A stretch of 34,708 nucleotides of DNA from positions 1 through 34,708 of the forward strand of contig JAMCVT010000097.1 of NCBI GenBank assembly GCA_023475565.1, read 5' to 3'. Shown here in pieces: positions 2 to 34,401 of the stretch. A program made the translations under genes and the position numbers. The notes below the pieces were generated by a model. It was not told where the DNA came from, did not search any database, and saw only the letters and a program-made list of their open reading frames with translations. The stretch's first letter is position 1. Every line of letters starts with the position of its first letter. The DNA comes from Actinomycetota bacterium. GTDB taxonomy: Bacteria; Bacillota; Desulfotomaculia; Desulfotomaculales; Desulfocucumaceae.

Positions 2-99
2 TGGCGGGAGTGTGTGAGAATCGAACTCACCAGGGACGGGGTTACCGCCCCACGACTGGTTTTGAAGACCAGGAGCACCACCAGGCGCCATCCACCCCC
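2..99 (-). tRNA. selC: tRNA-Sec (selenocysteine, anticodon UCA)
   Basis: Read on the minus strand, this 98-nt RNA ends in an encoded CCA and has a seven-base anticodon loop CTTCAAA closed by CTGGT/ACCAG, giving anticodon UCA, which reads UGA. The D arm is a 6-bp stem closed by a 4-nt TGGT loop, and the variable arm is long. Both are hallmarks of bacterial tRNA-Sec that separate it from tRNA-Ser. The T arm is GTGAG-TTCGATT-CTCAC. The acceptor pairs GGGGGTG with CACTCCC, and the eighth pair expected in tRNA-Sec appears to be a G-A mismatch. The host therefore probably decodes some UGA codons as selenocysteine; selA, selB and selD would lie outside the window. Confidence 0.93.
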
Positions 100-30142: not shown

Positions 30143-30700
30143 ATGATCTCAACCAATGATTTCAGGACCGGCCTGACTATTGAGATCGACGGTGACGTAT
30201 TCCAGGTGGTTGATTTTCAGCACGTAAAACCTGGTAAGGGCGCTGCCTTCGTAAGGACTAAAATTAGAAATGTGCGCACCGGATCGGTGGTGGAAAGAAC
30301 CTTCAACGCCGGAGAGAAACTCCCCCGGGCCAGGGTGGAAAAGAAAGAGTACCAGTACCTTTATAACGACGGGACAGTATACAATTTTATGGATATGGAA
30401 ACCTACGATCAGGTCGGACTTTCAGCTGAGGAACTGGGTGATGCCGTAAAATACCTCAAAGAAAACATGACTATAAATATTCTGACCTTCCAGGGCAAGT
30501 CAATAGGTGTTGACATGCCCAACTACGTTGAGCTTGAGGTGGCGGAAACTTCTCCCGGCATTAAGGGCGACACCGCCAGCGGCGGATCCAAGCCGGCCAC
30601 CCTGGAAACCGGATACGTTGTGCAGGTGCCCTTCTTTATTAATATTGGTGACGTTTTGCAGATAGACACCAGGACCGGACAGTACATTAAAAGAGCTTAA
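30143..30700 (+). CDS. efp: Translation elongation factor P
   Basis: tRNA-mimic factor that binds between the ribosomal P and E sites and promotes peptide bond formation at consecutive prolines. 185 residues with the three expected beta-barrel domains: KOW-like N-terminus ([24 protein letters not shown]), EF-P central block ([21 protein letters not shown] in pieces) and C-terminal domain ([28 protein letters not shown] in pieces). The tip residue is Lys32 in VKPGKGAAF. Start ATG 30143 follows AAAGGGGAGAAAAAA. No EpmA/B or other modification genes are seen; Firmicute lysine-type EF-P modification differs or is absent. Confidence 0.98.
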
Positions 30701-30758
30701 GGGTAATACCTGTCTCCCGACCATTAATTCCGGCCCCCTGGGGTCCTATAGGTTTAAA

Positions 30759-30820
30759 AACCCCCTTTTAGAGAAATAATAAGCAGTGAAATAACCAAGC
30801 CTTAATTATAAAAGGGGGTT
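30759..30820 (+). promoter_or_regulatory. Inverted repeat masking the ribosome binding site of the CD1247-like gene
   Basis: AACCCCCTTTTA (30759-30770) is the exact reverse complement of TAAAAGGGGGTT (30809-30820). The 38-nt loop is AT-rich. The right arm contains the only SD-like sequence (AAAGGGGG) of the gene starting 8 nt later, so in RNA a 12-bp helix would hide it. The stem is not followed by a T-run, which argues against a terminator. No known riboswitch class is recognised. Confidence 0.6.
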
Positions 30821-30827
30821 AAAGTCG

Positions 30828-31274
30828 TTGAGGGACCTTAAGTCGAGGGTGGCATATCTCCAGGGACTGTCGGCCGGGATGAACATCGAGTCAGATTCGA
30901 AAGAGGGCCGGATATTAAATGGCATCATTGAAGTGCTGGACGAGTTTGCTCAGTCGTTAAAGGAGATGGAAGCGGCCCAGGACCAGCTGGAGGACTACCT
31001 GGAATCTATAGACGAAGACCTTTTTCACCTTGAGGAAGGAATCTATAATGAAGCTGAGGATTCCGGCGAAGATGAGGATTATCTTGAGGTTGACTGCCCG
31101 AGGTGCGGAGAGGTTGTATGCTTCGATTCAGACATACTGGAAGATGACGACACAGTGGAGGTGACCTGCCCCAATTGTGATGAAGTGGTATTTATTAACG
31201 ATGACACCTACCAGGCGGCAGATGAGCCGGAGCACATAAGGGGGAGGCTTCCGCAGGAGGAAGATGACATTTAA
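30828..31274 (+). CDS. CD1247-like zinc-ribbon protein
   Basis: 148 residues with two parts. The N-terminal 65 form an amphipathic, coiled-coil-like helix pair (DLKSRVAYLQGLSAGMNI, LDEFAQSLKEMEAAQDQLEDYLESIDEDL in pieces), the pattern of the CD1247 N-terminal domain found in clostridia. After an acidic linker comes a zinc ribbon with CPRCGEVVC and CPNCDEVVF. The tail is acidic. It is often automatically mislabelled as a regulator; the function is unknown, and the zinc ribbon suggests nucleic-acid or protein binding. The start is TTG 30828 with SD AAAGGGGG inside a 12-bp inverted repeat. A terminator follows. Confidence 0.8.
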   Translation: MRDLKSRVAYLQGLSAGMNIESDSKEGRILNGIIEVLDEFAQSLKEMEAAQDQLEDYLESIDEDLFHLEEGIYNEAEDSGEDEDYLEVDCPRCGEVVCFDSDILEDDDTVEVTCPNCDEVVFINDDTYQAADEPEHIRGRLPQEEDDI

Positions 31275-33365: not shown

Positions 33366-33623
33366 ATGCCGGCTTCCCATAAGCTTAAACTATTGAAAAT
33401 TTGCCTATACATATTACTTATATTTTCATTAATTGGCTCCCCGGGAGTATTATTCGCAAATGTAGTAACAAACAATCTACCGGACAAGGCTTCACCTGCA
33501 CAAGACACTATTGAATTAACGCCCCCCGCCGGCATCTTGCCGGAGCCCAGGGAATCCGCTGCGGAATTAAATGCAGGACAAGGGGGACAGGTACCTTGTC
33601 CCTGTTTTTATCATTTGTTATAA
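33366..33623 (+). pseudogene. 5' part of a gene for a secreted protein, cut by the transposon-like element
   Basis: ATG 33366, 6 nt after AAAGGAG, opens a frame with a good signal peptide: a basic start (PASHKLKLLK), a hydrophobic core (ICLYILLIFSLIG) and a likely cleavage site at LFA-NVV. The mature part begins NVVTNNLPDKASPAQDTIEL and runs about 40 residues with many Pro and Glu. From about 33576 the codons come from the REP-like palindrome, giving a nonsensical GQVPCPCFYHLL tail before a stop. The natural C-terminus is therefore missing. A decayed fragment beyond the other end of the element (34519-34680) may be the rest. The function is unknown. The upstream AT-rich stretch contains TTGACT (33250) with TATTTT, a weak promoter candidate. 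Confidence 0.55.
33576..33602. repeat. Left REP-like palindrome of the RAYT element
   Basis: GGACAAGG (33576-33583) and CCTTGTCC (33594-33601) form a hairpin with a 10-nt loop. The overlapping GGGGACAGGTACCTTGTCCC (33583-33602) is the exact reverse complement of 34401-34420. The pair bounds an AT-rich block of about 800 bp carrying the transposase. Confidence 0.85.
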
Positions 33624-33642
33624 TTGTGTTGAGGTGATGGAT

Positions 33643-34401
33643 TTGCCAAGAGATGCAAGAAACAGCAGCAGTACCGGAATATATCACATAATGCTTCGAG
33701 GAATAAACAGACAAGATATTTTTGGGGATGAAGAGGATATCGAAAGATTACTGGAAACAATCAAGAAATACAAAGAAGTAAGTCAATATCAAATATATGC
33801 TTACTGTGTAATGAGCAATCACATTCATATGCTTATTAAGGAGACGGAAGATTCCATATCAAATATAATTAAGAGAATAAGCAGCAGCTATGTTTTCTGG
33901 TATAATAAGAGGTATGAACGATGCGGTCATTTGTTTCAAGAGAGATTCAAGAGTGAAGCGGTAGAAAATGATGAGTACTTTTTGACAGTGGTAAGGTATA
34001 TTCATCAAAATCCTATAAAAGCAGGAGTAGTAAAGGGAATTTCTGATTATAAGTGGAGCAGCTATAATGAGTATATGGATAGAGCAGTTATCGTAGATTC
34101 AGATTTCGTCTTAGATATGCTTTCACCCGATAGGAAAAGCGCAATTGAACTATTTCGGAGCTTTAACATTCAAAAGAACAATGATGCTTGTCTGGAAATT
34201 GATGAAAAAGTCAGGGTATCAGACAGTAAATTGAGGGAATGTCTCTTGAATCTGGGTATTGTGAACCCAAGAGAAATGAGGCAGCTAGATAAGAGCAAAA
34301 GAGATGATATTATTAAAAAACTGAAATCAATTAATGGAATTACAATAAGACAATTATCAAGAATGACCGGAATATCAAAGAGCGTGCTAGACAGAGTTTA
34401 G
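33643..34401 (+). CDS. REP-associated tyrosine transposase (RAYT, Y1_Tnp family)
   Basis: About 252-residue HUH-type single-strand transposase related to IS200/IS605 TnpA. The start is TTG 33643 (ATG 33637 alternative), giving MPRDARNSSSTGIYHIMLRGINRQDIF, the usual RAYT opening (shown here in one family motif). The HUH metal motif is SNHIHMLIK, and the catalytic tyrosine is probably in VVRYIHQNPIKAGVV. A C-terminal helix-turn-helix (ITIRQLSRMTGISKSVLDR) is an extra domain common in this clostridial group. The gene is clearly richer in A and T than its neighbours, suggesting transfer. It appears intact. RAYTs act on REP-type palindromes, and both flanks here carry one. The stop codon shares its last base with the right palindrome. 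Confidence 0.9.
   Translation: MPRDARNSSSTGIYHIMLRGINRQDIFGDEEDIERLLETIKKYKEVSQYQIYAYCVMSNHIHMLIKETEDSISNIIKRISSSYVFWYNKRYERCGHLFQERFKSEAVENDEYFLTVVRYIHQNPIKAGVVKGISDYKWSSYNEYMDRAVIVDSDFVLDMLSPDRKSAIELFRSFNIQKNNDACLEIDEKVRVSDSKLRECLLNLGIVNPREMRQLDKSKRDDIIKKLKSINGITIRQLSRMTGISKSVLDRV

Follow-up and report, generated by a model that had tools for sequence, protein, structure and literature searches.

What does a perfect 12-bp inverted repeat do around the Shine-Dalgarno sequence (SD) of a small protein gene that lies close behind an unrelated one? In the window, by which we mean the whole 34,708 nt stretch of DNA analysed here, a gene for elongation factor P (efp, 30143–30700; TIGR00038, 269 bits) is followed on the same, plus strand by a gene for a 148 aa protein (30828–31274), and the 127 nt gap between the two holds a hairpin on that strand, with a left arm AACCCCCTTTTA (30759–30770) pairing at 12 of 12 positions with a right arm TAAAAGGGGGTT (30809–30820) that includes the SD AAGGGGGT (30812–30819). 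A first-pass annotation had reported this repeat, the 38 nt between its arms, the SD inside the stem and the TTG start (30828) of the downstream gene, all of which we confirm; it had set the SD 8 nt before the TTG, and the SD does precede this codon, with its G-run ending 9 nt and the arm 7 nt before it. The description of the gene as CD1247-like with a zinc ribbon is also sound, as its product scores 91.9 bits against NCBIfam NF045650 (cut-off 30), placing it in the CD1247_Nterm family, and carries two CxxC pairs in its C-terminal half, a zinc-ribbon-like Cys4 part. Searching the PDB with the CD1247 profile gave weak matches only, mostly to coiled coils and to one small zinc-finger chain. Two further features of the window were recorded alongside: a repeat fragment at 30709–30745 (CCTGTCTCCCG..TTCCGGCCCCCTGGGG), whose core occurs at five sites in the genome at ≤1 mismatch (its own site counted) and which the close relative G002 lacks, having AGGAAATATAT in its place, and a selenocysteine tRNA at the window edge (6–99, minus strand). 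An ORF at 33571–34401 resembles a Y1/REP-associated transposase, to which, we presume, the repeat fragment is possibly linked.

Within the window, the hairpin folded better than expected over short distances, both in a 76-nt stretch (z −3.1; 1 of 200 shuffles as good) and in a 101-nt stretch (z −2.5; 0 of 200), and a 150-nt stretch folded no better than its shuffles (z −0.25; 75 of 200 as good). When loops of 3–60 nt were allowed, the window had ten perfect 12-mer seed pairs, a longer repeat being entered more than once, whereas block-shuffled copies averaged 0.16; the hairpin was one of five inverted repeats listed between 28000 and 34708. A chance origin is therefore unlikely, and such repeats are not unique to this site in the window; with several perfect repeats present, the reality of the hairpin rests on comparative evidence and not on the single hairpin.

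Members of the CD1247_Nterm family were found in 98 of 113 genomes of the window's class, including 75 of the 80 with ≥90% completeness and ≤5% contamination. Carriers included Desulfofundulus, Desulforamulus, Desulfotruncus, Desulfoscipio and Pelotomaculum, and further ones were MAGs bearing the labels Thermincola, Syntrophomonadaceae and Heliobacteriaceae; names of class and family such as Desulfotomaculia, like the forespore consensus names used below, are those which we take to apply. The leader pool comprised 179 loci, 164 of them distinct, second genome copies (17 loci, plus L125) being left out; one of the 164 was masked with N and 163 were scored for promoter boxes, 157 of them reaching the threshold given below, 154 were kept by spacing (16–18) and distance, and a reduction by k-mer similarity gave 95 non-redundant leaders. 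The common form among the leaders listed was TGTTTAAAA-CCCCC-...-GAGnnATAMTA-(loop)-AAGGGGGT-start, and the hairpin element is conserved in most of the relatives examined. In several families (e.g. L010, L014 and L027) a second conserved box, AGGAAATAWAT, was seen directly 5′ of the −35 box GTTTAA.

Comparing related leaders for compensatory changes, as the annotation had proposed, showed that the two arms change together and that pairing is kept in most of the relatives examined. Column-wise covariation in a MAFFT alignment was uninformative, since the left arm shifts its position relative to the promoter, and permutation tests were used instead. Across the 95 leaders, the promoter spacer plus −10 region paired with its own SD region at a mean of −16.9 kcal/mol, a value that swapping of partners weakened to −14.4 and shuffling of the spacers to −10.2; none of 10000 global permutations of partners matched the real pairing, the same being true when the −10 region was left out (again 0/10000), whilst 31 of 10000 permutations within families were as good (75 family-labelled leaders, 17 families). 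Several lineages retained the pairing with other letters, for example CCUCCUUUUUA/UAAAAAGGAGG in L186 and L202 (CCUCC with GGAGG), GCUCCCGGUG/CACCGGGGGU in L089, GGCCUCCC/GGGAGGCC in L076 and AAAUCCCUCC/GGAGGGAUUU in L199. In a stricter comparison of 47 phylogenetically disjoint sister pairs the signal was only weakly positive: the own partner paired better in 25, the swapped partner in 17, and five were equal (sign test p 0.28, Wilcoxon p 0.038), with 22 better and 12 worse once the −10 region was removed (sign test p 0.12, Wilcoxon p 0.049). Not all leaders conformed. Real pairing was absent in L185, L187, L189 and L194 despite promoter-like boxes, L034 had a broken stem, and in the Thermincola-like L176, L178, L179 and L182 the own pairing was no better than that with swapped partners.

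These changes bear on whether the arms act in DNA or in RNA. As a DNA operator, they would be inverted half-sites at which a regulator binds, the first within the promoter spacer and the second at the SD, and RNA folding would be irrelevant; the position of the left arm within the spacer would suit such a role, as would the fact that the arms are inverted repeats in DNA as well. Set against this, the letters of the arms differ among lineages yet stay complementary, the distance between the arms ranges from 8 to 71 nt (median 44) in the 88 of 95 leaders in which a helix was found when sought by Watson-Crick pairs only, and the right arm covers the SD. Moreover, the mismatches within these helices comprised 18 G-U against 6 A-C (and 26 of other kinds), an excess expected for RNA. 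We regard an operator as an improbable explanation of the repeat.

The left arm lies within a predicted forespore-type promoter, between a −35 box, GTTTAA (30752–30757, plus strand), and a −10 box, AATAATA (30775–30781, plus strand), which sits in the hairpin loop at a spacing of 17 bp. Scored as the match to GTTTAA plus ATAMTA (maximum 12), 157 of the 163 leaders reached at least 10 and six fell lower; among those 157, the spacing was 17 bp in 138 and GTTTAA was present in 125. Shuffled leaders reached 10 in 509 of 3260 cases, with no preferred spacing and an even spread over 14–21, and reached 11 in only 48 of 3260, against 145 of 163 real leaders, though as the box pattern was derived from the first 30 leaders these are partly circular in the counts. 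In the window GTTTAA-N18-ATAMTA occurs once, at 30752–30781, against 0.01 expected. Among sigG promoters of this class the form GTATAA-17-GGYAATAATG predominates (spacer 17 in 28 of 30); they share the 17-bp spacing and a similar −10 with our site, the −35 being GTATAA in sigG and GTTTAA here. A matrix built from 28 sigG promoters, applied to the ~1900 positions of each of 95 loci, placed the CD1247 site first in 47 and among the top five in 65 (median rank 1), whilst three column-shuffled matrices ranked it first in 0 of 95, a comparison that is partly circular in that the ranked sites had been selected for such boxes. By eye, SASP leaders share the promoter layout, and GTATAA with a spacer of 17 is present in 14 of 26 spoIIR leaders. 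In B. subtilis, sigG is transcribed by sigma-F and sigma-G according to PMC5942855. The boxes therefore look like a forespore promoter of sigma-F/G type, the sigma factor itself being uncertain because the −35 is GTTTAA and not GTATAA. The pattern alone finds no regulon, since genome-wide matches to GTWTAA-N18-ATAMTA were about as frequent as in reversed controls (6 vs. 4 in the window's own genome, 9 vs. 11 in G055, 6 vs. 11 in G041 and 5 vs. 4 in G013).

With the left arm occupying the spacer and the −10 box in the loop, transcription is predicted from the −10 position to start at ~30787 (30786–30788, plus strand), and RNA from this promoter would lack the left arm; the promoter seems to be placed so as to bring this about. 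A peak of G at aligned position 35 (69% G in 138 leaders) maps to 30787, where the window has T. The first-pass annotation had treated a start inside the loop as evidence against translational control, on the grounds that the left arm would then be missing from the mRNA. It would indeed be missing from the predicted own-promoter RNA, but it would be present in RNA reading through from upstream.

The conserved promoter also weakens a classical form of cis-control, in which transcription would start 5′ of the left arm and a hairpin in the gene's own mRNA would open on a change of temperature or through the action of a ligand or protein. The stem does hide the SD, as such a mechanism needs, but the promoter lies inside the hairpin, the loop length is not constant and no Rfam model matches the hairpin at gathering level, so that we think this reading unlikely. 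Two of the triggers suggested earlier belong here. An RNA thermometer is unlikely with a perfect 12-bp stem, and a search for a thermometer or other catalogued cis-RNA gave two gathering-level Rfam matches in the window, both to tRNA. Autoregulation by the zinc-ribbon product, or by any other protein bound to the loop, is likewise unlikely because of the variation in loop length among relatives, and the strongly conserved part of the loop is the −10 box.

Where, then, would RNA carrying both arms come from? In the window efp is the likely source of read-through transcripts entering the CD1247_Nterm gene, its stop lying 51 nt from the −35 box and 58 nt from the left arm. Among the 95 non-redundant leaders, efp is upstream in 90, its stop preceding the −35 box by a median of 15 nt (range −6 to 255) and by ≤20 nt in 52 of the 90, and such short gaps leave little room for a terminator. 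We compared the predicted cost of opening the SD in the two kinds of RNA: over the 95 leaders the mean was 8.7 kcal/mol for read-through RNA, falling to 4.9 when its left arm was shuffled, and 4.1 for own-promoter RNA, and the SD was predicted to be more than 2 kcal/mol harder to open in read-through RNA in 65 of 95 leaders, the reverse holding in one. For the window (L009) the predicted costs were 14.9 kcal/mol in read-through and 6.9 in own-promoter RNA, with the SD unpaired at 0% and 14%, respectively. In these folding models the SD lies within the stem of the long transcript, and the window's own-promoter RNA still leaves it mostly paired, though opening it costs half as much.

The proximity of efp raises two other readings. 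The hairpin might mainly form the 3′ end of the efp mRNA, as a terminator or stabiliser, with its overlap of the SD secondary. It does stand behind efp in those 90 of 95 leaders, and 41 of the 95 have at least five T within 8 nt after the right-arm G-run. Yet the window has no T-run behind the right arm, as had been noted earlier, the loops are long, and the hairpin persists where efp was not found: L038, L076, L089 and L090 have no efp in the 482 to 1500 nt searched upstream but pair strongly (−20.4 to −26.6), and in L090 a 134-codon open frame other than efp, pointing the same way, runs up to the −35 box. We hold a primary role at the efp 3′ end to be improbable and, even if it were true, read-through RNA alone would still be silenced. 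Alternatively, translation might be coupled, a ribosome finishing efp covering the left arm and freeing the SD, so that the two genes are co-translated. The nine lowest distances from the efp stop to the −35 box, −6 to 2 nt, would be close enough for a ribosome to touch the left arm, but the corresponding distance from stop to arm, counting 8 nt between −35 box and arm, is ~23 nt in the median relative and the design is also present in the leaders where efp was not found. Coupling, which the annotation had offered as a third trigger, is unlikely in the window because of the 58 nt between the efp stop and the left arm, and as a general explanation we consider it very improbable.

Taken together, these results suggest that the hairpin is probably a translation lock that selects between transcripts, with a promoter of forespore (sigma-F/G) type at its core. 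The order of elements is −35 GTTTAA, spacer with left arm, −10 xATAMTA, variable loop and right arm containing the SD, and most of the leaders examined retain both the promoter spacing and the complementarity of the arms. Read-through RNA from efp would carry both arms and fold, leaving the CD1247_Nterm gene untranslated in vegetative cells, whilst during sporulation a forespore polymerase would start in the loop and make RNA without the left arm, in which the SD would be freer. With both arms in read-through RNA and the left arm missing from the gene's own RNA, the hairpin would filter two kinds of transcript. In some relatives, where a T-rich stretch follows the stem, the stem might also terminate read-through RNA. 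The earlier interpretation was thus partly right, in that SD sequestration is supported (by pairing kept and arms that covary across lineages, weakly so in sister pairs) and the proposed triggers are not, and the piece it missed is the internal promoter.

A link between the element and sporulation is suggestive only. The one natural test comes from G074 (85% complete), which has no SpoIIR match, no full-length sigma-G match (best 2.5e-37) and SpoIVA in two pieces only, below the cut-off; it keeps a CD1247-like gene with a TGGAGG SD, but its best box match has a spacing of 14, with no 17-bp promoter, and its SD region has no pairing partner upstream (−3.3 kcal/mol vs. −5.5 for shuffles). Two genomes run contrary and the link is not clean, because G092 (64% complete) retains the promoter with a weak stem although it gave no match to SpoIIR or SpoIVA and no full one to sigma-G, and G062 has SpoIVA but lacks both the 17-bp spacing and any pairing stronger than that of shuffles. 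In G004 (97% complete) neither SpoIVA nor a CD1247-like gene was found, and the leader of G059, which has no SpoIVA, is masked with N. Members of family f3 (G009, G025, G035, G043 and G051) have a weak SASP match ~2.2 to 2.4 kb from the CD1247-like gene, perhaps marking a sporulation neighbourhood.

A similar pattern emerged in spoIIR. Of 30 fetched loci, 26 were examined, the rest being cut by contig ends, and in 14 (L208, L210, L211, L213, L214, L216–L221, L223, L225 and L227) the promoter spacer plus −10 region paired with the SD region (z −2.4 to −5.7 vs. shuffled spacers). These comprised nine of nine loci in family f11 and five of five in f3, with none among the other 12. Only 1 of 10000 permutations with within-family swapped partners was as good as the real pairing in the 13 positive loci used (L221, near-identical to L220, was left out). 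An open frame of more than 100 codons in the same direction has its end −6 to 14 nt from the −35 box in five of five f3 loci, and 57 to 141 nt upstream in six of the eight f11 loci examined. From the sequences, then, spoIIR in two related families appears to have a design similar to that of the CD1247 leaders. The sigG leaders of the class do not show it, only one of 30 reaching z −2 (L317, −2.1), and no such pairing was seen in the 18 of 30 SASP loci inspected by eye. Besides the CD1247 sites, two GTWTAA-N18-ATAMTA matches had pairing near an SD. L284 (G041; GTTTAA-N18-ATACTA, 9-bp pairing to the SD, z −3.9) is perhaps the same design on another gene, named by look as oxidoreductase-like, and L268 (C80, window's own genome; z −4.6) precedes a gene which from its look we take to be methylase/pyrophosphohydrolase-like. 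We put forward tentatively, as something that may well not hold, that placing a forespore promoter within a hairpin that locks the SD is a general means of insulation in the class and related Clostridia, evolved at several forespore genes (CD1247-like, spoIIR in two families, perhaps others), which would block the making of forespore proteins in the wrong cell from housekeeping read-through, the promoter spacer and SD co-evolving as one dual-purpose DNA/RNA unit.

If the lock operates as proposed, an uncharacterised zinc-ribbon family gains a place in early forespore development, and a developmental gene behind a constitutive one is silenced by simple means, one sequence being both the promoter spacer at the DNA level and, once transcribed, the anti-SD. 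That a similar layout recurs in spoIIR suggests a possible signature for forespore genes in sporulators that are difficult to manipulate. Searching the literature by gene name and by read-through SD sequestration found no report of a CD1247 leader element; the principle, however, has precedents in a phage and in B. subtilis. As described in PMC2988022, phage T4 I-TevI RNA from an upstream promoter hides the SD, whilst RNA from an adjacent late promoter is unable to fold in this way, and SD hairpins with a late promoter inside or adjoining are also given there for T4 segB and Aeh1 mobE. The likeness to I-TevI is that a stem hides the SD in upstream transcripts and that RNA from the near promoter is too short to form it; the context is phage timing there and sporulation here, we claim no relation in sequence, and removal of the hairpin was tested in T4, whereas the lock here is predicted. 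For B. subtilis sigG (spoIIIG), PMC5942855, which cites Masuda 1988 and Sun 1991, has a large hairpin proposed to block translation of read-through RNA from spoIIG, and this hairpin cannot form in RNA from the sigG promoter. On that account both cases have a forespore gene behind another operon and a hairpin specific to read-through RNA. The B. subtilis case differs in concerning another gene, in the Bacilli, and the sigG leaders of the window's class lack spacer-SD pairing, whereas the element described here is widely conserved and has its left arm inside the −35/−10 spacer. With T4 I-TevI and B. subtilis sigG as earlier instances of the principle, the CD1247 leader element would be a new, widely conserved example of it.
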